NCBI GenBank assembly: GCA_003054695.1 | Contig: QAZA01000024.1 | Location: forward strand, 1 to 64,000 | From: Verrucomicrobia bacterium LW23 | GTDB lineage: Bacteria > Verrucomicrobiota > Verrucomicrobiia > Methylacidiphilales > UBA1321 | DNA length: 64,000 nt | Direction: 5' to 3' | Shown: piece after piece, positions 1 to 15,739 of the stretch | Layout: each line of letters starts with the position of its first letter | Numbering within the stretch: position 1 is the first letter of the stretch | Notes under the pieces: generated by a model | Told to the model about the DNA's origin: nothing | Seen by the model: only the letters and a program-made list of their open reading frames with translations | Databases searched by the model: none | Translations under genes and position numbers: made by a program

Positions 1-20
1 CTAGGAGCCTGTCGGGTTTA
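1..20. repeat. IS1182-type terminal inverted repeat, left end
   Basis: This is the exact reverse complement of 1572-1591. The transposase stop codon (18-20 on the minus strand) lies inside the repeat, so the coding sequence fills the element to its very end. Confidence 0.93.
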
Positions 21-1532
21 AGAGTGGCGCCGTTGTAAAGAAGGGGCTTGGAAGCATGCCATCAGGAAGAGGGAGAAGAGAAGATTGGCAGAAGAGGGGA
101 TGTTGCTTGTGGTCCTGAGGAGAGTGGCGATACGTTTGCAGTTGTAGGCGAGTGCGACGAGGGTCCATTCGCCCTGGACGTTGGAGAGGCCTCGCAGGTG
201 GAACTGGCGGAAGCCGAGGACGGCTTTGATAATGCCGAAGGTGGGCTCGACGGAGGTCTGTCGTTTGCCGTAAAGGGTTTTGCCTTCGGGGGTGGCCATG
301 GCGTTGCGCATGGCGAGAAGTTCGGAGGCTTTGAGCGTGCGCGGGCGGCGAGGTGGCTTATCTTTATCCTTATCGTTGTTGTGGGCATCTGTGGTGCCGG
401 GACGAGGGCGGTAGTCGTAGGGGCGCTGGGAGACGGTTTGATCCTCACGCGCTACGGCGATGTAGGGCGTTACGCCCATGTCTTTGAGGGCGTTGATGTT
501 GGCGATGCTGCAGTAGCCGCTGTCGGCGAGAACGGCGCGGGGGCGACCGAGGGTAGCGGGGATGGCGCGCACGGTGTCGAGCAACTCTGCGGTATCGGCG
601 CTGCACGGGCTGATGCGGGCGGCGAGGATGAGCTGGCTGCCGTCGGCGTCCACGGCGGCCTGGGCGTTGTAGCTTTGGGTGACACTGTGGCTGGTGCCTT
701 TGCGCATCACGCGGCTGTCGGGATCGGTCAGGTTGCTTTGGGCTCCGGCATCGGTCTCCAGCTGGCCGGACAGACTTGGGGGCGGTCCGGGTGGGCGACC
801 TCCCCGACCACCGCGCTCGCGGTGTTGGCGATGGGCGGCGGCTTTGATCTCGTGCTGCACCTGGGCGGCCGCCAGGCGCTCCTGCGCCCGGGCTTTGAGC
901 CGCTGCTGGGCCTGTTGCATGGACTCGATGAGGGCCTCGCGACGGGCTATCTCCTGCGGCAGCGCCGGGTCGCGAGGGCGGTTGTCGCTGTCCGCCGCCT
1001 CGGCCTGCGCCAGCAGGTCGCCCACATCCGCGCGCAGCTTCGCCTCCAGCTCCTGCGCCCGCGCCAGGGTGAGGTTGTTGTCTTTGCTGGCATTGGCCCG
1101 CAGGTGCGTGCCGTCGATGCTCACGTTGCCTACCGACAGCAGCTTCATCTCCCGCGCCAGCTCCAGCACACGCACAAAACACTCCGCTATCGCTCCCAGG
1201 TTGCGTCGCCGAAACTCGCAGATCGTCGCATGATCCGGATGCAGATTGGCGCACAAATACCGCACCCCGATATCCCGATACGTCGCCTGCTCAATGCGCC
1301 GAGACCCGAATATCCCACGCGTATAACAATAGATCAGCAACGCCAGCATCATATGCGGCGGATACTGCTCCTTACCCGCCCCTCGCGGATGCCCCATCGC
1401 AAACGCCCGCACGTCCATCATCCCCGCCGCCTCAATGATGAAATGCACAGGATCGCTCTCCTCCACCCAGTCCCGCATATCCACCGGCAACAGCAACGCT
1501 GTCTCCCGATCCACTACTTTATACCGTGTCAT
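18..1532 (-). CDS. IS1182 family transposase
   Basis: This 504-residue protein is a DDE-type transposase that cuts and inserts the surrounding element. The N-terminal region (MTRYKVVDRETALLLPVDMR) and the stretch around residues 60-110, with RRIEQA, ATICEFRRRN and related segments, are typical of the IS1182/IS5-like DUF772 domain. The signature VSIDGTHLRANASKDNN carries the first acidic residue. ADSGYCS carries the second, and VEPTFGIIK near the C terminus carries the catalytic glutamate. The length is normal for the family and no frameshift is visible. Translation starts 40 bp inside the right inverted repeat and ends within the left one. The gene is far richer in GC than the island genes next to it, as expected of an element that arrived separately. 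Confidence 0.93.
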   Translation of the reverse strand: MTRYKVVDRETALLLPVDMRDWVEESDPVHFIIEAAGMMDVRAFAMGHPRGAGKEQYPPHMMLALLIYCYTRGIFGSRRIEQATYRDIGVRYLCANLHPDHATICEFRRRNLGAIAECFVRVLELAREMKLLSVGNVSIDGTHLRANASKDNNLTLARAQELEAKLRADVGDLLAQAEAADSDNRPRDPALPQEIARREALIESMQQAQQRLKARAQERLAAAQVQHEIKAAAHRQHRERGGRGGRPPGPPPSLSGQLETDAGAQSNLTDPDSRVMRKGTSHSVTQSYNAQAAVDADGSQLILAARISPCSADTAELLDTVRAIPATLGRPRAVLADSGYCSIANINALKDMGVTPYIAVAREDQTVSQRPYDYRPRPGTTDAHNNDKDKDKPPRRPRTLKASELLAMRNAMATPEGKTLYGKRQTSVEPTFGIIKAVLGFRQFHLRGLSNVQGEWTLVALAYNCKRIATLLRTTSNIPSSANLLFSLFLMACFQAPSLQRRHS

Positions 1533-1571
1533 CTCTTCCCTCTCTACCCCCTTTTCCCTCCTCCCTCAAAC

Positions 1572-1591
1572 TAAACCCGACAGGCTCCTAG
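1572..1591. repeat. IS1182-type terminal inverted repeat, right end
   Basis: This is a perfect 20-bp match to the reverse complement of 1-20. Sequence to its right (from 1592) is the interrupted integrase reading frame. Confidence 0.93.
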
Positions 1592-2394
1592 GTTTGGGCG
1601 CTACCACGAAACGGAATAGATTTTTCTCGGTGCTGCAAATATTTGACTACGGAGTTACGACATTACGCGTGCTTCAGGAAAATCCTTTTGACGATGAGCT
1701 TTTGAAGCGCCGATGCACACCCTCCCCTGAGCATGAGGAGCAGGCAAAAGACGACCGCCCGGCGTTTACAATTGAAGAACTCAATCGCATATTCTCCACG
1801 TCCTTATTCCGGTCGAATCTTTCTCCGAAGGATCAGCCAGCGCGTTTTTGGGTTCCTTTGATATGTCTTTTTCACGGATGCCGCCAAAACGAAATTTGCC
1901 AGCTGCGTACAGAAGACGTTAGAAGCTGGGAAGGTGGCCTGTTCTTTGATATCCGTTCGTCAGAAGGGAGACGGCTAAAGAACAAGGCAAGTCGGCGATC
2001 AGTCCCTCTTCATCCAAAGCTTCTTGAGTTGGGATTTGCCTCCTATGTCGAGGCGCGTAAAGCCGACACCAAGAACATAGACTTTTTTCCAGAACTCGTT
2101 CCAAGCAGCCCCAAAGGCACTTATGGAACGAAGATGTCCCGCTGGTTCGCCGAGTTCCTCAGCAAGCTTCCTGGCCCTCCAATTCAGGCGACATTCCATT
2201 CATTTCGAAAGAACTTCACCGCTGCCGCGCAGAAAGCGGGAGTGAGTATGGAAAGGATCGATCGCATTTGCGGTTGGTCAAGTGGTCATCGCCAACAACG
2301 GGATTACGCAAGGGATAGGTTCCTTGCCGAGCACGCAGTGGAGATTGCGAAGGTGCATTTTTCAGGACTCAAATTGCCTATAGGTGGCCACTGA
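1592..2394 (+). pseudogene. Tyrosine-recombinase integrase, 5' part removed by the IS
   Basis: The frame entering from the IS edge encodes about 267 residues of a phage- or island-type site-specific integrase. The catalytic domain is nearly complete. FTIEELNRIF begins it; GCRQNEICQL carries the first catalytic arginine; RRSVPLHPKL follows; HSFRKNF is the H-x-x-R box; ICGWSS with QRDYARD carries the final box and the likely nucleophilic tyrosine. The N-terminal SAM-like DNA-binding domain is missing and would lie left of the IS, outside the window. The gene is inactive as it stands unless a start within the IS restores an N terminus, which is unlikely. Its presence marks 1.6-15.8 kb as an integrated island that has probably been immobilised. 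Confidence 0.88.
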
Positions 2395-2512: not shown

Positions 2513-4201
2513 CTAAGCCCTTGGTCTAAACTCCAAGCCAAGTTTTTCTTTCAAAAAATCCTTTAGTACAAACACCTCAATCTTCCTGTCTCCACGAGCT
2601 TCGTCTAAGAAATATTTAGTCTGCCTATCAGCCTCTGTGGGTGGTGCAATCTTCATAATGCGCTTATTGCCTCCAAAATCTTCAATCGTATCGTCATTTT
2701 TAATGTCGGTATCCCAACAGACAGTACTATGAGTGTTGTTGAACGAATGGTTAAATTTACCGGCGCTTAAAGTGTGTTTAAATTCCACGTAAAATAGCTT
2801 TGAAGAATCCAAAGCAGGTCCTCCAACACTTTTGACAATAACATCAATTCCCTGATGAGTGTCGTAATCAACAATCTCGAATGGAAAAATTTCTTTATTT
2901 AACGTCATTAGCTGTACCACTAGACTGAAGACTCCGCTTTCTCTTTCGGGCTGGATCAATATTACATCCTTATACGCTGCGATATTTGCACGTTTGGCTC
3001 TCTTGATGCGAAGACAAAAACTTTTTGTTTCGAGTTCTGTACTGCGATATGCTTCCGCCTCGTTCTCCAAATAGCTAATATTTATCCAGTCCTCACCGCT
3101 GACAATATCGTCGTAGATTTGCATTATTGACTCCCGCAAATCATCAATAATATCAGAGGGCGTATTGTCTATTGAACCGCGATTTGCCGTTAACTTGAGT
3201 GCCTGGCAATTTACAAAGGCATGAAATTTTGTATATTCTGAGCCTTTGAACGTTATCCATTCATTTTTTCTTTGGATAGGAATAAAATCTTTACAGAGCC
3301 AGAGACCGTAACGCTCCTGAACAGTGTAGTCTCCTTCAAACCGTGCCCTGCCAGGACGCCGCAACATTGAATTGTGGCTCAGCTTGACGCGATTGCCTTC
3401 GATATAAAAAACAGCATCAAAGCTAATTTCAGGAGCTTTCTTTAGGTTTCCGCTCTTAACCACTTTATTGCAATACCAGTCGGGGGCGTTGACTTTATAT
3501 TGATCAAATAGATCATTGACTGACTTACTTACCGGTGGAAATGGATGTCCGATTTTGATAGCCTCTGGTTTAGAGGCGTCAAGACCTTGTAGATAGACAG
3601 TAACTTCCGGTACATCCCTACCCAGAAGCTCTCCTTCAAACGATGCCATTTTGGTAAACCACTGGATGTGATCTTTCAGGATTGCTTGCCTAAATTTCTG
3701 TCTCTGATTGCCATTGTATCCCTTAATTATAATCTCTGTTCCTGCGACGGTACCTGGAACAGCTTTGTTCTCCTGCACTGCTACCGTGGGTATTTGTCGA
3801 TCAGAGAGGCGTTGAAACGGATTCTGAAGAAGCGCCGTCAATGTCGCTTCATTCTGTGTGGTGATTACAGTAATCTCGGAACAATTAAGATAAACTTTTG
3901 TGCCATGTCCCTTTTCGCCTATACTTAGAGAATCCCCACGCTTTGATGAGTTACCTAGATCGAAGAAGCATTGAAGGGTCTCCTTATTCATCCCTTTTCC
4001 ATCGTCCTTAATCGATATGACGAGGATTCTATTCCCATATTCCGTCACTGCCTTGAACGTAACATGAATGCAAGTCGCTCCTGCGTCAAATGCGTTGCTG
4101 ATCGCTTCCCTAACGACATCAAGCGGATTCGCAAAATCGTTGGCAATTTCGATGAATTCCTGAGCAGCGTCAACTTGCGGGGTAATTTCATAGGCACTCA
4201 T
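2513..4201 (-). CDS. GHKL (Hsp90-like) ATPase with C-terminal PD-(D/E)XK-like nuclease motif
   Basis: This protein has 562 residues from the ATG at 4201, chosen because the conserved region starts soon after it; an ATG at 4324 would add 41 unremarkable residues. Residues 25-105 form a Bergerat-fold ATP site: REAISNAFDAG (31-41) is the N box, DDGKGM (66-71) the G1 box and GEKGHGTK (95-102) the G2 box. A long middle region follows that resembles MutL/Hsp90-type transducer architecture. Near the C terminus GIDVIV (D453) is followed 20 residues later by FYVEFKH (E473, K475), the D...ExK arrangement of restriction-like nucleases, with an FNHSF...VCW segment after it. ATPase plus nuclease suggests ATP-gated DNA cleavage in phage or plasmid defence (inference). 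The XRE gene upstream on the same strand may control it. Base composition is low in GC. Confidence 0.8.
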   Translation of the reverse strand: MSAYEITPQVDAAQEFIEIANDFANPLDVVREAISNAFDAGATCIHVTFKAVTEYGNRILVISIKDDGKGMNKETLQCFFDLGNSSKRGDSLSIGEKGHGTKVYLNCSEITVITTQNEATLTALLQNPFQRLSDRQIPTVAVQENKAVPGTVAGTEIIIKGYNGNQRQKFRQAILKDHIQWFTKMASFEGELLGRDVPEVTVYLQGLDASKPEAIKIGHPFPPVSKSVNDLFDQYKVNAPDWYCNKVVKSGNLKKAPEISFDAVFYIEGNRVKLSHNSMLRRPGRARFEGDYTVQERYGLWLCKDFIPIQRKNEWITFKGSEYTKFHAFVNCQALKLTANRGSIDNTPSDIIDDLRESIMQIYDDIVSGEDWINISYLENEAEAYRSTELETKSFCLRIKRAKRANIAAYKDVILIQPERESGVFSLVVQLMTLNKEIFPFEIVDYDTHQGIDVIVKSVGGPALDSSKLFYVEFKHTLSAGKFNHSFNNTHSTVCWDTDIKNDDTIEDFGGNKRIMKIAPPTEADRQTKYFLDEARGDRKIEVFVLKDFLKEKLGLEFRPRA

Positions 4202-4478
4202 GAGTGCCGGCAGTATATCAGTTACAATCAGCGGCGCAAATAATGACTTTACCTGCAACGCTGCGGAACTCGCGATGGCACACCCAGACAAATTCCAACA
4301 TTGCGATGCGGAATGTTCGACCACCTGTTTCGGAGACCGACAAGGTTCGAAGATGCGGGGCGAGCAAAATTGTTGTGAAGAGAAAGCAGATGTCTATGTC
4401 TTTCCTCTCGTGCGATCTCTATGATGACTCTCTGCAACATTACACTTGGGCCACTTCCTTCCAAGCGAGACACATACG

Positions 4479-6621: not shown

Positions 6622-7429
6622 TACCGGCTCCGGGAGCCTTGCACCGGAACGAACTTTTTCTCACTGAGCTTGCTATCGGTATCAAGTCGTCAAAACCTTC
6701 GAAATAGGGAGTTTGTACGGTGCCGAAATTAGAGAATATTTTAGAGCACCGTACGCAAATTGTGGCTGCTCCATTCTGTTTTAGGTCGAAGGCTTCCCCC
6801 GTTTTTTACAATCAATAATGGACCGGATTTTGCATATTCGACCCTCTATAAAGCCTTAAATATGTGCGCCCTTATTCCAACCCCTTCGAGGCCTCGAAAG
6901 GGCCTCCTAGGGGCATTTCCAGCCCGTTAAACGCCTTATATGATTTGTTGCTATAGTCTTATTTCCTCTCAATTATGTCCAGGTTTGGAAGGAAGGCTTC
7001 GTGAGGGCATTTCTCAATATCATTGCGTGGTCTAGATGCTAAAGGGCATCGCAGCCTAATTCAAACTTACTGCTGCCATAGCCTTAACTGCCATCGGAAT
7101 GCTCCTATTATCAGATAAGAATGAAACTGGTTTCACTGGCCAATTGTCGTAAATGTCTTTGTCCCCGCGTCGAAGCGACCTGAGATGACTGAACCTCATG
7201 AACGCGGCCTAGGAAAGAAAACCGTTAACTAATCAATCCTCTACTTCTAAATACGCAGGTCGTTGGTTAGTTGCCTTGCATGGGAGTATAGGCCATTCAG
7301 CGCTTGTTGTTTATATGTGATTAACTTAGCCTTTTCTTATGAAATATGATGTAAAACGAGTTCGTTTTAATCGATAAAATTGGCACCCAATTTCAAGACT
7401 GTAGTATCAATCCATAATGATCAAACAAC
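6622..7429. other. Gene-free 0.8-kb spacer with inverted repeats
   Basis: No convincing gene is visible on either strand. The spacer holds an inverted repeat (GTACGGTGC at 6715-6723 against GCACCGTAC at 6746-6754, with TTTG/CAAA continuing outward), a 14-bp palindrome TTCGAGGCCTCGAA near 6885-6898 flanked by CCC/GGG, and the diverged repeat at 7119-7251. It is AT-rich, more so towards 7300-7430, just before the HTH gene, where a promoter is likely. Confidence 0.6.
7119..7251 (+). repeat. Diverged ~130-bp island repeat, copy A
   Basis: This aligns along its length with 13762-13890. The first 20 bp are identical (GAATGAAACTGGTTTCACTG), followed by recognisable matches such as TGTC/CTCGTCCC, GACCTGAGATG against GACCCGAGATG, GGAAAGAAAACCGTTAACTAA against the equivalent GGAAGGAGAACGCTAACTAA, and TCCTCTA. 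Weaker similarity extends about 50 bp beyond on both sides. The copies have diverged, so the duplication is old. Neither copy is coding. Confidence 0.8.
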
Positions 7430-8475: not shown

Positions 8476-9516
8476 ATGCGATGCGTTGAACTTTTTGCCG
8501 GAGGGGGAGGGATGGCTCTCGGACTCGAAGCGGCAGGTTTCAAAACTGAGCTTCTCATCGAGTGGGATCACAATGCCTGCGAAACTCTCCGACGCAATCG
8601 CCCCCTCTGGAACCTAATTGAGGGCGATGTTCGAAAAGTGGATTTCACGCCTTACAGAGGCGTCGATCTCGTAGCGGGCGGCCCCCCTTGTCAGCCATTT
8701 AGCGTAGGGGGATTAGCTAGAGGCTATGACGACACGCGGGACATGTTTCCTGAGGCGGTACGCGCAGTGCGCGAAATTCGTCCTCTGGCATTTATATTTG
8801 AGAATGTACGTGGTCTGGCACGTCCGGCGTTCCGCAATTATGTGGAGTACATTCGACTTCAAATGACGCACCCGGATTTCCCAATCTCCAACAATGTATC
8901 TTGGGACAAAAACCATGCAAGATTGCAAAAATACCATCTGGAGTCCGGTGCAGACAGATTGACCTATAAGGTTTTCCAGTGCTATGCAAACGCTGCCGAC
9001 TATGGTGTTCCTCAAAAACGTCATCGTATTTTCTTTGTCGGCTTTAGGTCAGATTTGGAGGGACCTGGATGGCATTTCCCGCTTCCGACTCATGCAAAAA
9101 ATAGCGGTGTTTTTCTAGAGAGCTGGAAAACTGTGGCTGATGCATTGAAAGGCCTGCCCGATCCACGCAAGAGTAACAATTTTCAAGGGCATTGCTTTCA
9201 ACCTGGTGCTAAGAGCTATCCTGGACACACCGGATCTCCGATCGATGAGCCTTCCAAAGCGCTAAAGGCTGGAGATCACGGCGTTCCTGGAGGAGAAAAC
9301 ATGCTTCGTGATTTGAATGGGAATGTTCGCTACTACACAATTCGCGAAGCCGCGCGGATTCAGACGTTTCCTGACGATTGGATTCTGGAAGGCGCCTGGA
9401 CGGAAGCTATGCGGCAGATCGGAAACGCAGTTCCGGTCGAGTTGGCGAGAGTCGTTGCCGCGAGCGTTCACAAGTATCTGCAAATATCTCTCCAAGAAAC
9501 CACTCCATTAGCGTGA
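8476..9516 (+). CDS. DNA (cytosine-5) methyltransferase of a type II R-M system
   Basis: This 346-residue enzyme transfers a methyl group from S-adenosylmethionine to C5 of cytosine in the recognition site and so protects host DNA. Motif I is ELFAGGGGMALGLEAAGF (residues 5-22). Motif IV is GGPPCQPFSVGG with catalytic Cys72. Motif VI is FENVRGL (about 109-114), motif VIII is QKRHRIFFVGF (180-190), and motif X is GNAVPVELARVVA near the C terminus. Length and motif order are normal for a single-chain C5 enzyme. Its last codon and stop (GCGTGA) overlap the GTG start of the endonuclease, which implies translational coupling. The adjacent endonuclease family suggests the specificity (see the next entry). 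Confidence 0.96.
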   Translation: MRCVELFAGGGGMALGLEAAGFKTELLIEWDHNACETLRRNRPLWNLIEGDVRKVDFTPYRGVDLVAGGPPCQPFSVGGLARGYDDTRDMFPEAVRAVREIRPLAFIFENVRGLARPAFRNYVEYIRLQMTHPDFPISNNVSWDKNHARLQKYHLESGADRLTYKVFQCYANAADYGVPQKRHRIFFVGFRSDLEGPGWHFPLPTHAKNSGVFLESWKTVADALKGLPDPRKSNNFQGHCFQPGAKSYPGHTGSPIDEPSKALKAGDHGVPGGENMLRDLNGNVRYYTIREAARIQTFPDDWILEGAWTEAMRQIGNAVPVELARVVAASVHKYLQISLQETTPLA

Positions 9517-10382
9517 CACCTGAACAAAGCGACGCTCAAAATCGTTATCTCAAACTGGTTGAAAAAGCCAATGAGCTAACTGAGGAGATCGGAAAGTTAT
9601 CAACGGAAGATCGCGCGGAAGTTCGGCGCACATTGAAAGCGCGCTCGCTGAAACTCGCGCGTCAGAAGCTGACTGCTCTGCTTGAACAGGTTGAGGCATT
9701 GCTAGAAGAAATGGCTTCAGCCTCATCTGGGCCCATTCAAATCACGCTTTCTCGCTCTTATAACATAGCTCAGTTTTTTGCTTTCAAATTTGTCCATCAG
9801 CCACGGCTTGAGCTTAGCAAATTACAAGAGCTTCCGTTCCACGGATCAGGAATCTACGCCTTTTATTATATAGGCAAATCATTCGAACCGTATTTGCCAA
9901 TATCTGGAACCGAAACTCCAATTTACGTTGGAAAGGCCAGCCCCAAAGATTCTTATGCTGAATCTACTTTGGAGCAAGGAACCGTGCTCTTCGACAGATT
10001 GGTTGAGCACGCCAAGAATATGGAACGAGCGGAGTTGAAATTGTCAGATTTTCACTATAGATGCGCTACCGTTCAAAGTGGCCTTCAAGATACTGTGGAA
10101 GGCTTCATGATCAAGCTGTTCCGTCCCCTATGGAATAAGGAAGTCAAAGTAGCGTATGGAATTGGAAAACATGGTGACGCCGCTGAAACTCGCGCAAATA
10201 AACGTTCTCCCTGGGATACGCTGCATCCAGGTAGAGCTTGGGCAAGTCTGACTGCACAAGATCAGGTCGCAAAGGAAAAGATTATCGAAAAAATTGTCGA
10301 CCACCTACAGAAGCACAAGCCATTCGCAGATCTCAACGAACTGCGGAGGGAATTAGCCATATCTCGCTTAGGACAGAACTGA
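9513..10382 (+). CDS. Eco29kI-family GIY-YIG restriction endonuclease
   Basis: This protein has 289 residues from a GTG at 9513, which overlaps the methyltransferase stop codon by 3 bases; the open frame upstream is just the methyltransferase in another frame. Residues 1-70 are a coiled-coil-like helical arm. From 108 the Eco29kI catalytic domain follows: HGSGIYAFYYIG (GIY at 113-115), TPIYVGKASP (135-144), LFDRLVEH (159-166), FRPLWNKEV, then GIGKH and SPWDTLHPGRAWA. These match the order and spacing of R.Eco29kI, which cuts CCGCGG. The same specificity is likely here but inferred. CCGCGG does occur in the window, for example at 27301, so the host must be methylated if the enzyme is active. 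Confidence 0.92.
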   Translation: MTPEQSDAQNRYLKLVEKANELTEEIGKLSTEDRAEVRRTLKARSLKLARQKLTALLEQVEALLEEMASASSGPIQITLSRSYNIAQFFAFKFVHQPRLELSKLQELPFHGSGIYAFYYIGKSFEPYLPISGTETPIYVGKASPKDSYAESTLEQGTVLFDRLVEHAKNMERAELKLSDFHYRCATVQSGLQDTVEGFMIKLFRPLWNKEVKVAYGIGKHGDAAETRANKRSPWDTLHPGRAWASLTAQDQVAKEKIIEKIVDHLQKHKPFADLNELRRELAISRLGQN

Positions 10383-10772
10383 AGTTACCCGCTTAATGCA
10401 CTCGTCAGGGAACTTTTGAAGAGTTGATTCCCAAATTCTAATCACCGTCCATCCACGTTCTTTGAGCGTGGAGTTTACAACGGAATCGCGAATCCTATTT
10501 TTATCGATCTTTGCCATCCAAAAATCCACGCGACTTTTGGGAATCCGCAGGTTGTCTGGATTCCCATGCCAAAAATCCCCATCAACGAAAATGGCAATCT
10601 TCCTTGATCGAAAAACGAAGTCAGGTTTTCCAATTATAGGATAGTGCCGCCGCCAGCCCTTGATGCCCGCAGCTCGAAATAAAGTGGCAAGCTTGAGCTC
10701 AGTAGAGCGATTTTTACGGCTTCGAACGCGCGACATGAGTGCAGACCGTTCGGCACTGGAAATCGTATCCAT
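10368..10772 (-). CDS. vsr: Very short patch repair endonuclease Vsr
   Basis: This 134-residue protein runs from the ATG at 10772; a TTG two codons earlier is possible. Vsr nicks beside T:G mismatches that arise when 5-methylcytosine deaminates, so it protects the sequence methylated by the neighbouring methyltransferase. SAERSALMSRVRSRKNRSTE is the conserved N terminus, then YPIIGKPDFVF, the catalytic AIFVDGDFWHG, and the C-terminal ERGWTVIRIWES. Length is normal. It is convergent with the endonuclease gene, and the two 3' ends overlap by 15 bp, so the three genes form one compact module. Confidence 0.95.
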   Translation of the reverse strand: MDTISSAERSALMSRVRSRKNRSTELKLATLFRAAGIKGWRRHYPIIGKPDFVFRSRKIAIFVDGDFWHGNPDNLRIPKSRVDFWMAKIDKNRIRDSVVNSTLKERGWTVIRIWESTLQKFPDECIKRVTSVLS

Positions 10773-10911
10773 AGGCAAAACAGCAGTTTTCCATTATAAG
10801 CCTCGTACCGCAAGGTGCTATTTGTTTTTGGAATCTATATCATGGGTTCCATCGCCCGTAGTGAGTTTCTCGTTGGAACGACTTTAACCTTTTATCCCTT
10901 TTGATCTCCCT

Positions 10912-13656
10912 ATGGAACCTGTCATCTCCGCTCCCGATCCTCTACGGAAGCAGGAAGTGCGCGTGAATGAAACTGGTAAAGCAAGTTTAACGCCTGTGGA
11001 GGCGTCTGGAAACAAATTTGAGTTATGGAAGAAATGGGCTATTTCGACCGGTTGTCGCATGTGGATTGTAAGGGGGATTTTCGTATGTTGCAGTAAGATG
11101 ATTTCCTTTGGCTACAAGCTGTATTCTTCGAGCCAAGTTCGAACTCGTTGGTGGAATATTCTGCTCACTTCACTTCTTTTCGGAGCACTTTATTATTTCG
11201 TGGGTTTTTCGGTATTTAACCTTATTGCGCCCCAATTAGATGGAATATTCGCATACGGATTTTCCCGTGGAGTATTTGAACTTTCTTTTCTCGGTTCCCT
11301 TATACTTATTTCTTATTTTATTCTTCGCACAAAAAGGCGCCACTTTCTTTATATTGATTCTCATCCACCTTATCCCATTGCTATGTGGATGGGGTGTCTT
11401 TGGCTGTATTTGATTTACATCATTCAAGAAGCCTCGGAATCTCACGTAACATATTCACTCATCATTTATACATTTTGCATTCTAATATGGGGTGCAAAGA
11501 CTTGGTGTGACGAAATTGCGAAGCCATTAGCAGGAGAAACAGAGCCAGATTTTCCTCCATTACCAGATCCCTCTAAACTAAATGATGAGGAGTATGTCGC
11601 CTGGTATCAAAATGAGTCGCCCGCTAGCGAGCAGGCAGATATGCTAGGACATCGACATATTGCCTCCAAGCTTCTTAAGAAACTCGACGAAGGGAAACGG
11701 CAAGGTGCCCTGATCGGTGATTTTGGAACTGGGAAGTCAACTGTGTTCAAATATCTAAGGCAGCAAGCTGCTAAACAGAATAGCAAAGCGATCTTTGTTG
11801 AAGTAGGATGTTGGGGGATTACCGACGTAACTAAAAGCCATCAATATATTCTTGAGAAAGTAATCGAATGTTTGGGTAAAGAGTTTGATTGTTTTGGCCT
11901 CGAAGATATACCGGCTAAATACATAGAAGCCCTGAAAATCACTAAATCTGAGTTTATCAATGCTGTGGACATCTTTCTCCCTAAAGCCAAGGAACCTAAA
12001 GAACAGCTGAAGCGCTTAGTGCCTATGCTTGAAGCTGTGGATCGATATGTTGTTATCCTAATAGAGGATGTCGATAGGAATTGGAAGAAAGACGATTTGA
12101 GCATGTTTCAGACACTCCTTGTCCAGATTCACGACACCAAGAGACTTTCCTTCATCCTTGCTATTTCACCTACTCAACATATCGATTTCTCTCGTACATG
12201 TGATTTTGTAGAATGGATTAATACAATCGACAGAACCTACACTTTGAGAGTTTTTAGACGTCACATACAGTTCTGGCAAAATAAACTTTCCAAAGAAGAG
12301 AGCGTCTATACTAAGCATATAAATACGCTCCAGTTTGACTTTCCGGACAGCGTGATTAATGTGGCTCAGAGACGATATGGAAATCCTGAAGCTAAGGAGG
12401 CACTAAGCAACTCTATCATAACTCTAGTTAAGTCACCTAGGCAGCTTAAACGCATTCTCAATAGGGCAGATGAAACTTGGTATATCCTCAAACATGAAAT
12501 TTGCTGGGATGATATTTTTGTTGTCTCAATTTTAAAAACTATAGTTCCAGAAGCATATTCGTTTTATCTGAGCACGATTGCGACGGCTCACGAGAATGCG
12601 CCTTTTTGGGATTCTGGCTCAAAAGAGCACAATTCTGTACTTAGCAACCTTAAAGCAAGATATCGAATGGAGATAGAGGAGGTTCTTCCCCTACAGTGGG
12701 CGGCCATCGGAATTCTGCTCAGTTTTTTAGATCCGAAGTTTACTAAGATAGTTGGCTGTGAATTCTCACCGAGAAATATTGGTCCGGCTCAGTCAATTGC
12801 CGCTTCATCTCGGGCCAATCTATATGCGCAAAAGTTGCTCACAGAGTCGGCTAGCATAGAGTGCCCGAACGATCGTGATCTGCTTTATCTAATTCATAAG
12901 ACTGAGGCCAATGATGATGCTTTACAGGATCTTGTGAATATCTATTGCAACGAGCAATCCGTTCGACAACGCTTATCATTGAGAGAGTTTCATGTATCTC
13001 AAATATGTATTCAAAGATTTGCCGAAAGAATGATTACAGATTTGCACAGCGCCGAAATAGGTGATGTGCGATACGGTTATGCATGTAGTTTAGCGTCTTC
13101 AATCAGCGGTCACTATGATAATATTAATGCGAGAAAATGGCTTGCTACTATATTGAAGAAATGCAAGCAAAATCTGTATGCAATGAATGAGATTATGAGA
13201 TCTTCCAAGGTGGTTGAGGAAGTTCGAGATGAAGTGCGTAAAGATTTATGCAACTACTGGAAAGGGGGTAATAGTATCTCGTACCGAAATTTAACAAGCG
13301 CTTTGCCGGTGTCCCAACCGACGCTCCTTCGAGAGCTCTTTCAAAATCTTAATCCTGGAATATATAATTCTACTCGCTCCGAAGTCCAAACTGATAGCCT
13401 TAAAGATTGGAATCAAGCAGGTGACATGATTGTTTTTATCGTCAAGCAAAGGCCTGACTACACAATGCACATCCTATACTCGCTATCGATGCAAATAGAT
13501 AGTGATGCCAATTACAGCCTGGATTTACATCTTGTAGATCAATTATTTGGTGACAACGCATTAAAGGTTAAGCTTGCAATTAGCCAGATAGTCTCATGGA
13601 AAGTCGCAGACAGGTATCGCCCTATTGTTGATAAGGCAATAAGCGACGCCCGATAA
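10912..13656 (+). CDS. Membrane-anchored KAP-like P-loop NTPase
   Basis: This is a 914-residue protein. Four hydrophobic segments at about 82-105, 122-138, 155-171 and 179-195 anchor it in the membrane. The NTPase domain follows: GDFGTGKST (269-277) is Walker A and VVILIEDVDR (380-389) is Walker B, with FILAISPTQHI as the next strand and a conserved arginine context (CDFVEWINTIDR). The remaining 500 residues are helical with no motif I recognise. The layout resembles KAP (PifA-type) and YobI-like NTPases; PifA is a known phage-exclusion protein. Its place next to a restriction-modification module supports a defence role (inference). The gene is low in GC, stands alone and is bounded by gene-free spacers. 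Confidence 0.75.
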   Translation: MEPVISAPDPLRKQEVRVNETGKASLTPVEASGNKFELWKKWAISTGCRMWIVRGIFVCCSKMISFGYKLYSSSQVRTRWWNILLTSLLFGALYYFVGFSVFNLIAPQLDGIFAYGFSRGVFELSFLGSLILISYFILRTKRRHFLYIDSHPPYPIAMWMGCLWLYLIYIIQEASESHVTYSLIIYTFCILIWGAKTWCDEIAKPLAGETEPDFPPLPDPSKLNDEEYVAWYQNESPASEQADMLGHRHIASKLLKKLDEGKRQGALIGDFGTGKSTVFKYLRQQAAKQNSKAIFVEVGCWGITDVTKSHQYILEKVIECLGKEFDCFGLEDIPAKYIEALKITKSEFINAVDIFLPKAKEPKEQLKRLVPMLEAVDRYVVILIEDVDRNWKKDDLSMFQTLLVQIHDTKRLSFILAISPTQHIDFSRTCDFVEWINTIDRTYTLRVFRRHIQFWQNKLSKEESVYTKHINTLQFDFPDSVINVAQRRYGNPEAKEALSNSIITLVKSPRQLKRILNRADETWYILKHEICWDDIFVVSILKTIVPEAYSFYLSTIATAHENAPFWDSGSKEHNSVLSNLKARYRMEIEEVLPLQWAAIGILLSFLDPKFTKIVGCEFSPRNIGPAQSIAASSRANLYAQKLLTESASIECPNDRDLLYLIHKTEANDDALQDLVNIYCNEQSVRQRLSLREFHVSQICIQRFAERMITDLHSAEIGDVRYGYACSLASSISGHYDNINARKWLATILKKCKQNLYAMNEIMRSSKVVEEVRDEVRKDLCNYWKGGNSISYRNLTSALPVSQPTLLRELFQNLNPGIYNSTRSEVQTDSLKDWNQAGDMIVFIVKQRPDYTMHILYSLSMQIDSDANYSLDLHLVDQLFGDNALKVKLAISQIVSWKVADRYRPIVDKAISDAR

Positions 13657-14368
13657 CGTCATAGTTAAAGAGAATTGTAGCAAGCTTCCAATTTGCAGCT
13701 GGCATCGCCCTAACCGCCCGTGGAATTTGAAACCGGTTTCAATTCTTCAGTTAGTCTATACGAATGAAACTGGTTTCACTGACTAAGGTCGTGTCCTCGT
13801 CCCAGCCTCAAAATGACCCGAGATGCAAGAACCTAATGACGCGCGGCTCAGGAAGGAGAACGCTAACTAAGGAATCCTCTATCTTTAAAAGTGGGTCATT
13901 GATGACAGTTGGCTTATGAGAATTACTGGCCCTAAGCACTGATGATCCTTTTAGAACATCGAGATGCGTCTGATTTCCCTTATAAAAGATGCCTAACGGG
14001 TTAGTGATCTTGTCCGCATTCCAGTGCAGGGGAAATATTCAAATATCCTTCAGATTTTGGACATTGGATTCCCGGACAAACAGCATGGCGTTAAACAGGC
14101 CGCTCAATTCATTGACTAACGAAATGGACAAATCATCCAAAGTTTGCGATAGTCTTCGAAAGATTATATATCAAGTCGATCACCCTCGAAAATATCCGGT
14201 CGTTCTCGCATCTCGATATAGTTTGGCCATTGGGCTGATCAGTTAAATTGTCGATATCACATTCAGTAGACGCATATGAATGCTTCTTACTTCAATTGCG
14301 CATGTAACTACAACCAATATAGATGAAGAATAGAACGTGATATAGCTGATGCTTAGCTATCATTCTAT
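13657..14368. other. Gene-free 0.7-kb spacer with two palindromes
   Basis: No convincing gene; an 85-codon frame at 13989-14246 has no coding character. The spacer carries GAAACCGGTTTC (13729-13740), GAAACTGGTTTC (13766-13777), repeat copy B (13762-13890) and ATTTCCCTTATAAAAG (13973-13988). The segment TGCAGCTGGCATCGCCC just before the palindromes resembles the sequence before copy A. Confidence 0.6.
13762..13890 (+). repeat. Diverged ~130-bp island repeat, copy B
   Basis: Partner of 7119-7251 in the same orientation, with an identical first 20 bp and interrupted similarity thereafter. The two copies flank the segment holding the terminase-like gene, the restriction-modification module and the P-loop NTPase, so that 6.6-kb block may once have moved or been duplicated as a unit. 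Confidence 0.8.
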
Positions 14369-15682
14369 TTACAAAATAGTATCTATACTCTCTCCGCTTA
14401 GTATACATAAAGCTCTCCGATAGGAGCTTGTTATTAAATAGCGTCCATTGGAAGAAACTAGGATTCTCCTTCTAACTAGCCTTTGTAGGGTGCTATCCAA
14501 TGCGGCGCCTAACGCAATCCCGCGTCCTACCACGAGGGAGGAATTGGCAACCAAAATCTCCAGAATGGATTGAGCTTCCCCTTGAGATCGGCAAACGGTT
14601 TGGATATCGATAATTAACTGAAGAACAGATTTATCTTCCAGTGGCGGCTCAGTGCGAAGGCGGAAATGATTCAATACCTCATTGACTCTTTCCGTAGCGA
14701 GACGTGCAAGGCTATCCAGGAGCTGTAACGCATCCTCTATCCTAAAAAAGGTGTGTCCACCTTGAGAAAGCCTGAAAGCATCTCCGCTCAACTCGTGAAT
14801 AATCTCGAAACGAATTCTACGATTTGTCTTTGCGTAAATTTTTAGTATTTCTCCTCTGCGAGTTTGGATGCTGAGGCGACGCGTATTTTCGACTGCTTCG
14901 GGACGACCTGCCTGGATGGGATAATCCTGCGATGTTACTGGCTGCGCAGCAAATGACCTTAAATAGGGTTCCAGTCTCAAAACTATTTGGATAGGATCAG
15001 AGCACGCAAATTCAAAATAAGTTTCTACACTCTGGATGTTGAAACGATTTTCTACTGGTGTAGCAATTCTGAGTCCTTCTACTAGCTGTATCGCTCCAAC
15101 AAGGTAGCGGCGGACATGGTCGGGCCAGAATCGATTGGAGTTGTATTTTGACCAGAACCGGTCAGAAGGGAGCCAATTATCACTTTCGATCAATGCGAAT
15201 TCACCAAAATGATCGAGAGGGATTTCACGACGGAAAAGATGCGTTTCCATACGGGGCGAATCTCCAGAGAGAAGTTGTCTTATAGGACGAGGAAGTCCTT
15301 GATGTCGAAGAAACCGCGTAGGGTTAAGAGAGAGGAGCGTTAAGAACGACCAAGGCGGTAAATTTCGATTGGAACCAAAGATTCTGAGATGACCCTGAAA
15401 TAACGGTGGCGGCAACAGATGCGGAGTTTCTTGCATCGCGCGTGACCGAATTGTTTGAGCCTCAAACGGTGGCAGTTCCCTTCTGGGACGATTAAAAATT
15501 CTGCCGTAGTCATCAGCAACGGGCCCCCAGTTACGAGGTGGCGATCCAAGACGCTGAAGGAAGCGGGCAATATCACTCGCGCTGTTAGAACTCCTTCCGT
15601 GGTCTATCTGCACTTGGATTTTGTCTTGCCGAGCATCGTTTGCGGAAACCGTTACCTCGAAACTAAACGCGGGAAGAGCCAT
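14369..15682 (-). CDS. Unrecognised 437-aa protein with replication-protein-like motif
   Basis: I do not recognise this gene. The ATG at 15682 (MALPAFSFEVTVS) is preferred; an upstream ATG at 15739 adds 19 residues. The protein is soluble and arginine-rich with no membrane segments. A central stretch, GEILKIYAKTNRRIRFEIIH, resembles the K-Y-x-K...R-x-E pattern found in some phage and plasmid replication initiators, but the catalytic tyrosine motifs of those proteins are not evident. The C-terminal third is helical and may hold a winged-helix domain (LDSTLQRLVRRRILV). It is the last gene of the low-GC island and reads away from the probable right junction. A replication or maintenance gene of the integrated element is a weak inference. 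Confidence 0.6.
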   Translation of the reverse strand: MALPAFSFEVTVSANDARQDKIQVQIDHGRSSNSASDIARFLQRLGSPPRNWGPVADDYGRIFNRPRRELPPFEAQTIRSRAMQETPHLLPPPLFQGHLRIFGSNRNLPPWSFLTLLSLNPTRFLRHQGLPRPIRQLLSGDSPRMETHLFRREIPLDHFGEFALIESDNWLPSDRFWSKYNSNRFWPDHVRRYLVGAIQLVEGLRIATPVENRFNIQSVETYFEFACSDPIQIVLRLEPYLRSFAAQPVTSQDYPIQAGRPEAVENTRRLSIQTRRGEILKIYAKTNRRIRFEIIHELSGDAFRLSQGGHTFFRIEDALQLLDSLARLATERVNEVLNHFRLRTEPPLEDKSVLQLIIDIQTVCRSQGEAQSILEILVANSSLVVGRGIALGAALDSTLQRLVRRRILVSSNGRYLITSSYRRALCILSGESIDTIL

Positions 15683-15739
15683 TTTTTCACAATGCACAGT
15701 TGACGGCCCCTTGGCGAGTGCTACAAAAAGGTATTCCAC

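Follow-up and report, generated by a model that had tools for sequence, protein, structure and literature searches.

A branch of KAP NTPases with N-terminal membrane helices in Verrucomicrobiota and Planctomycetota, and its plausible link to phage exclusion

The large membrane NTPase encoded in a 64,000-nt stretch of the Verrucomicrobia bacterium LW23 genome (contig QAZA01000024.1, positions 1 to 64,000; hereafter the window) belongs to a family of proteins that share helices at the N-terminus that include a [YHWF]P[PSR] motif, a KAP NTPase carrying the W / LPxxY / DxDR signature, and a C-terminal region of their own of ~350 aa. What the data directly support is this three-part architecture, conserved across the family, together with the family's monophyly, its ATPase motifs, and an occurrence that is sporadic and in part mobile. 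With regard to function, we lean slightly toward the gene being a solo, accessory, horizontally moving anti-phage NTPase that would act on the membrane and work like PifA or Tmn while being neither of them. Phage exclusion by the window protein, as the original prediction had it, is plausible; a role in defence draws mainly on the PifA-like KAP kinship, the membrane architecture and the sporadic, partly mobile occurrence.

The open reading frame and both ATPase motifs of the original prediction were recovered exactly (Table 1): Walker A (GDFGTGKST) begins at residue 269 and Walker B (VVILIEDVDR) contains EDVDR at 385-389, and the core also displays W301, an LPxxY-type motif ending at Y337, and SPRQLK at 508. 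Walker A, an aromatic W after strand 2 and a DxDR-type Walker B make up the KAP motif set. The proposed KAP affiliation agrees with the Pfam profile KAP_NTPase (PF07693), which matches residues 250-517 above its gathering score (24.4 bits vs 20); AAA_22 also exceeds its cut-off (30.3 bits vs 27), slightly above the KAP_NTPase score. The best PADLOC model is PifA (4.7e-8), matching residues 238-324 only. Relatives behave similarly: P0002, P0003, P0005 and P0006 pass the KAP_NTPase gathering score, and PifA is the best PADLOC match for P0002-P0006. The YobI-like P-loop NTPases (PF20693), which the original prediction named for a profile check, are absent among the Pfam matches of the window protein at E<=1; P0002 scores 13.4 bits against this family, below the gathering score of 27. 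The NCBIfam scan of the window protein gave nothing near a cut-off, the QatA equivalog scored 15.7 bits vs a cut-off of 600, and the PHROGs scan gave nothing at E 0.001 or better for the family. Thus no dedicated model from Pfam, NCBIfam, PADLOC or PHROGs matched the family. Hydropathy places five segments in the N-terminal part (50-68, weak; 83-101; 120-138; 153-171; 177-195) and none between Walker A and Walker B, and the low-confidence full-length AF2 model places helices at 74-105, 111-139, 153-174 and 181-207. Four helices ahead of the P-loop, as originally predicted, are thus a fair reading. The 500 residues of unassigned helical sequence that were said to follow the ATPase motifs stand as a helical tail, though not at that length: profile alignment with PifA extends the lid to ~552, leaving ~360 residues without a named domain.

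Table 1. Genes and protein regions in and around the NTPase gene of the window
Feature	Position	Strand	Basis and remarks
C5 methylase	8476-9516	+	Pfam; upstream of the NTPase gene
Eco29kI-type endonuclease	9378-10382	+	Pfam; upstream; true start probably later
Vsr gene	10368-10778	-	Pfam; between the R-M genes and the NTPase gene
N-terminal-helix KAP NTPase gene	10912-13656	+	Profile and hydropathy; intact ORF, ATG start, 914 aa
Membrane-helix region, ~residues 75-207, HPP motif 151-153	11134-11532	+	Hydropathy, AF2 helices (low confidence), family-wide motif
KAP NTPase core and lid, ~residues 248-552	11653-12567	+	Profiles, alignment, domain model
Family-specific C-terminal region, residues 568-914	12613-13653	+	Leave-one-out profile, hhalign; without a Pfam domain
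456-aa gene	14369-15739	-	Downstream neighbour; no Pfam, PADLOC or meaningful NCBIfam match

The family comprises 17 members, the window protein and 16 relatives at other loci. By hydropathy, at least three hydrophobic segments precede Walker A in all 17, including L059, which lacks its 5' end; together with the KAP_NTPase score above cut-off, this takes the arrangement beyond a chance pattern. Twelve aligned members share the invariant residues P152, G272, G274, K275, W301, L314, Y337, D386 and R389, of which P152, where the third helix starts, is part of the [YHWF]P[PSR] motif; the relative P0005 retains FEAWQY and DDLDR. Membrane segments inserted between Walker A and B are frequent, not universal, among KAP NTPases. 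For comparison, 30 KAP loci from related genomes were read, of which ten were well scored and had a located Walker A, the rest being weak, partial or without a located Walker A, plus three family members. None of the ten has segments before Walker A. Two hydrophobic segments lie between Walker A and B in two of them (L066 and L072), and because the other eight lack such a pair, we did not treat inserted helices as defining a KAP. The original prediction of a subfamily of its own is supported by phylogeny: in a tree restricted to the NTPase domain, membrane columns excluded, the 17 helix-first proteins (L059 included) separate from 13 other KAPs with support of 100/100, a split present in all 200 bootstrap trees counted. 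PifA and the helix-inserted L066 and L072 fall among the 13. A smaller NTPase-domain tree without L059 gives the same split (11 vs 13 rows, 100/100). The split of the larger tree persists after removal of four long or short rows (14 vs 12). Caution is needed because branches are long, with a program warning that long branches meet, and because family profiles were used to recruit the members; a useful control is L060, a soluble KAP of genome G400 that was recruited likewise, lacks the helices, and groups with the other KAPs. It was excluded from the family and served as an outgroup row. Open-access literature on KAP, PifA and Tmn, to which our survey was confined, yielded no paper on a helix-first KAP branch.

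The C-terminal region is shared across the family as well. A profile of 13 other members, with three truncated members of the 17 left out, scores 37.2 bits on the 347 C-terminal residues of the window protein vs 5.1 for the best of 50 shuffles, and hhalign of this region against the family gives 95.7% over 307 columns. The C-terminus of a Hymenobacter KAP reaches 10.7 bits against the same profile, above the shuffles, so that other KAP tails may be distantly related. In the same leave-one-out test, the N-terminal region scores 7.6 bits vs 1.7 for the shuffle, which is weak alone. The membrane and C-terminal modules are without a reliable fold, since the full-length AF2 model from five sequences is poor (pLDDT 48). 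The NTPase-plus-lid part modelled alone reaches pLDDT 69 and pTM 0.65, and in structure comparison ORC/Cdc6, RdrA, TnsC and CED-4 rank together, tied; among these rows are 1fnn (Z 13.9, 251 residues, 4.4 A) and the anti-phage protein RADAR RdrA 8hr8 (Z 13.3, 272 residues of an 835-residue chain, 4.6 A). Tied matches to a predicted model of this kind show fold, not function. The NTPase-plus-lid model resembles RdrA, level with the ORC rows, but its sequence identity to RdrA is 8%, and RdrA is not known to have N-terminal membrane helices. No model for RdrB is among the matches listed at E<=1 for seven neighbour ORFs of the window gene (for the methylase, the best 25 of 62 families).

Two experimentally studied KAP proteins provide the closest functional comparisons. 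The core and lid of PifA, the KAP NTPase of the F plasmid that excludes T7, align with the family profile over 300 columns (hhalign 98.3%, E 2e-14). By contrast, PifA begins directly at the NTPase, without the four-helix module; its C-terminal half, from residue 376 on, gives only 0.3% in hhalign against the family C-terminal region; and in the tree it sits with other KAPs across the 100/100 branch. PifA senses T7 proteins, and membrane depolarisation has been suggested (excerpt of PMC8594841). Tmn, like the family members, is a single-gene membrane KAP NTPase; as described in an excerpt of PMC11846954, it has two transmembrane domains, acts on several E. coli phages, and inhibits T2, P1, phiVi and phiX. 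Tmn-type KAPs differ in that their helices are inserted in the NTPase, as the title of Aravind 2004 cited in the same paper has it, whereas the helices of the window protein precede it; Tmn is thus set apart by description. The same distinction is seen directly in L066 and L072, KAP NTPases with hydrophobic segments that lie between Walker A and B rather than before Walker A. A KAP P-loop NTPase is also mentioned in anti-selfish-element neighbourhoods in an excerpt of PMC10853773.

Relatives occur in Verrucomicrobiota, in Planctomycetota and on one Catenovulum megaplasmid. A protein search of 190 related genomes found a family-type match in three, the own genome included, after a fourth weak match (G162, 5.4e-5) was dropped. 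When 384 genomes of the window's class were searched with a profile, ten matched and the same three were retained, the other seven having short matches around Walker A or B (E 3.6e-6 at best); G000 also had a weak second match (9.7e-4) that was discarded. In Planctomycetota, a threshold of 1e-10 gave matches in 7 of 392 genomes; one of these matches was the soluble KAP L060, leaving six family genomes, and in the class of G757 matches at 1e-20 were found in 8 of 397 Planctomycetota genomes. A genome-contig search returned three loci, two already known and one from a Phycisphaerae genome, itself of the Planctomycetota. The plasmid search found the Catenovulum protein, with the same architecture, and the soluble Hymenobacter KAP, which was used as an outgroup; plasmid searches with three further members returned the Catenovulum record only. 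Two scans of viral contigs and a search of a phage collection gave no family members. Several copies are incomplete. The Spartobacteria relative L023 (9956-12683) consists of two ORFs in different frames with a 14-base overlap, and may be a broken gene or one split into membrane-NTPase and C-terminal parts; L056 terminates early, ahead of an IS-type transposase gene; L059 contains stops; and L061 runs off the contig end. The sporadic spread, broken copies (L023, L056, L059) and mobile settings suggest that the family genes are dispensable and turn over fast.

In the window, the gene lies within a stretch of 41-49% GC (~2-15 kb), while the surrounding genome region has ~60% GC. It is divergent from the Vsr gene, with 133 bp between them, and a promoter scan of 10300-14400 showed no excess (11 sites vs 8.4, sd 3.0, in shuffles). 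R-M systems recognizing CCGCGG with a Vsr element are already known (excerpt of PMC10855626), which makes the R-M part of the window ordinary. On either side of the HTH, methylase, endonuclease, Vsr and NTPase genes lies one copy of a direct repeat (7040-7277 and 13666-13915; 250 nt, 67% identity); the repeat has no further copy in the genome, and its right copy contains one extra palindrome. The intervening block is possibly a mobile cassette. The 6.6-Mb genome contains the palindrome GAAACYGGTTTC at four places (window positions 2430, 7123, 13729 and 13766), all intergenic and all in the island; one follows the integrase ORF directly, one precedes the R-M block, and two come immediately after the NTPase gene. 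Allowing up to one mismatch, the window has eight matches vs 0.44 expected. The palindrome might serve in recombination or as an operator. A link between the integrase and the palindrome was rejected, as none of five integrase relatives has GAAAC...GTTTC (gap up to 4 nt) nearby. The 5' end of the integrase gene has been cut (window positions 1-2394) by a complete IS, whose 20-bp inverted repeats (1-20 and 1572-1591) are perfect; 319 aa are left vs 593-636 aa in relatives, and the gene's first 52 codons match sequence on another contig at 96%. The same low-GC island carries a GHKL/HSP90-type ATPase (2513-4324, minus strand) that weakly resembles sacsin-like and BbrUII/HgiDII restriction proteins, possibly a further defence gene.

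The neighbourhoods of the relatives are heterogeneous, some of them suggestive of defence or mobility and others ordinary, and no neighbour gene common to the 16 other loci was seen. The member at L106 (13-8184) lies antisense between a DUF4055 gene, which we take to be phage portal-like, and a P22-type coat gene, like a prophage moron. At L055, the gene is located between an Eco57I/IIG-type methylase and a DEAD/MZB DruE-like helicase, and the L061 contig also carries a DruE-like helicase. Two integrases accompany the L054 member, and the L056 member is near a TrwC relaxase. At least six relatives (L022, L023, L024, L005, L059 and L103) have no recognised defence or mobile hallmark nearby. We compared the defence genes of these neighbourhoods with controls using PADLOC at 1e-30 (93 ORFs at 16 loci, the window being outside the case set, vs 108 ORFs at 11 control loci, L118 and L119 having been left out of 13 fetched); this comparison with controls covers defence genes only. 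Defence genes are found near 3 of the 16 relatives and 1 of the 11 controls, and are not clearly commoner. The case loci, taken from the best 25 of 56 families so that the case set may hold further matches, carry DruE, IIG or PDC-S02 and are L055, L061 and one taken as L058, an assignment of our own based on a YhcG/DUF1016 gene; the control match is one MTase_II/REase_II set, counted as one locus. Matches to PD-T4-6 kinases, mad6, SspA/DndA and a phospholipase, present in the case set, the control set or both, were treated as generic and excluded from the count. With these proportions, guilt by association is weak.

The preferred reading of the gene as a membrane-acting anti-phage NTPase would work as follows. 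The protein would be laid out as a four-helix N-terminal membrane module, a KAP (STAND/ORC-like) ATP switch and a C-terminal helical region, the last of which would detect a phage-induced trigger. The trigger would lead to ATP binding and self-assembly, and the membrane module would then damage or depolarise the inner membrane, aborting the infection. More tentatively, the family could represent a class of bacterial immune NTPases not yet described, with the order membrane effector, KAP switch and C-terminal sensor, which prophages and islands would spread among Planctomycetota and Verrucomicrobiota; its four-helix module with the conserved PP motif would be a pore-forming or depolarising effector triggered via the C-terminal region. 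We regard this extension as possible but doubtful. Several other explanations compete with an abortive role. The membrane module and NTPase might instead block injection or conjugation, as an exclusion function of prophages or plasmids that keeps phage or plasmid DNA from entering and does not kill the cell. The moron-like copy on the opposite strand of a prophage structural region (L106) fits this, as do the copies near a relaxase, near two integrases and on a megaplasmid; however, half or more of the loci are without a recognised mobile hallmark, and the nearest tested relative, PifA, acts after infection, by abortive infection (excerpt of PMC8594841). We therefore consider exclusion at entry unlikely.

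In our estimate it is no likelier that the NTPase serves as a membrane scaffold or in signalling, with accessory islands carrying it for a purpose other than defence. The many non-defence neighbourhoods, and the lack of a clear enrichment of defence genes over controls, would be expected of such a protein, but its sporadic distribution (3 of 190 genomes; 6 of 392 and 8 of 397 in Planctomycetota), broken copies and mobile settings speak against it. A housekeeping ATPase with conserved synteny, the outcome that the original prediction named as contrary to its own, was rejected because the distribution is sporadic (3 of 190) and no synteny was seen to be shared with the 16 other loci. The original prediction also took the adjacent R-M module as a clue to function. 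The NTPase would then be a functional part of the Eco29kI-type system, to which it is adjacent in the window and with which it is enclosed by the 67% repeat; against this, the opposite-strand Vsr gene intervenes, and no Eco29kI-type R-M lies beside the gene at the other loci examined. Because no relative shares the partnership, it was rejected as very improbable. The clue to function is likewise unsupported, the partner being peculiar to the window and defence genes showing no clear enrichment around the relatives.

The helix-first proteins are supported as a rare variant within the already known KAP NTPase family. They constitute a protein type without a dedicated database model, from phyla whose phages have been little studied. 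Published accounts leave open how KAP defence proteins kill: the mechanism of Tmn is called unexplored (excerpt of PMC11846954), and that of PifA is a suggestion (excerpt of PMC8594841). With the membrane part present as a separate N-terminal module rather than an insert, the membrane part, switch and sensor would be separable and swappable in laboratory strains.
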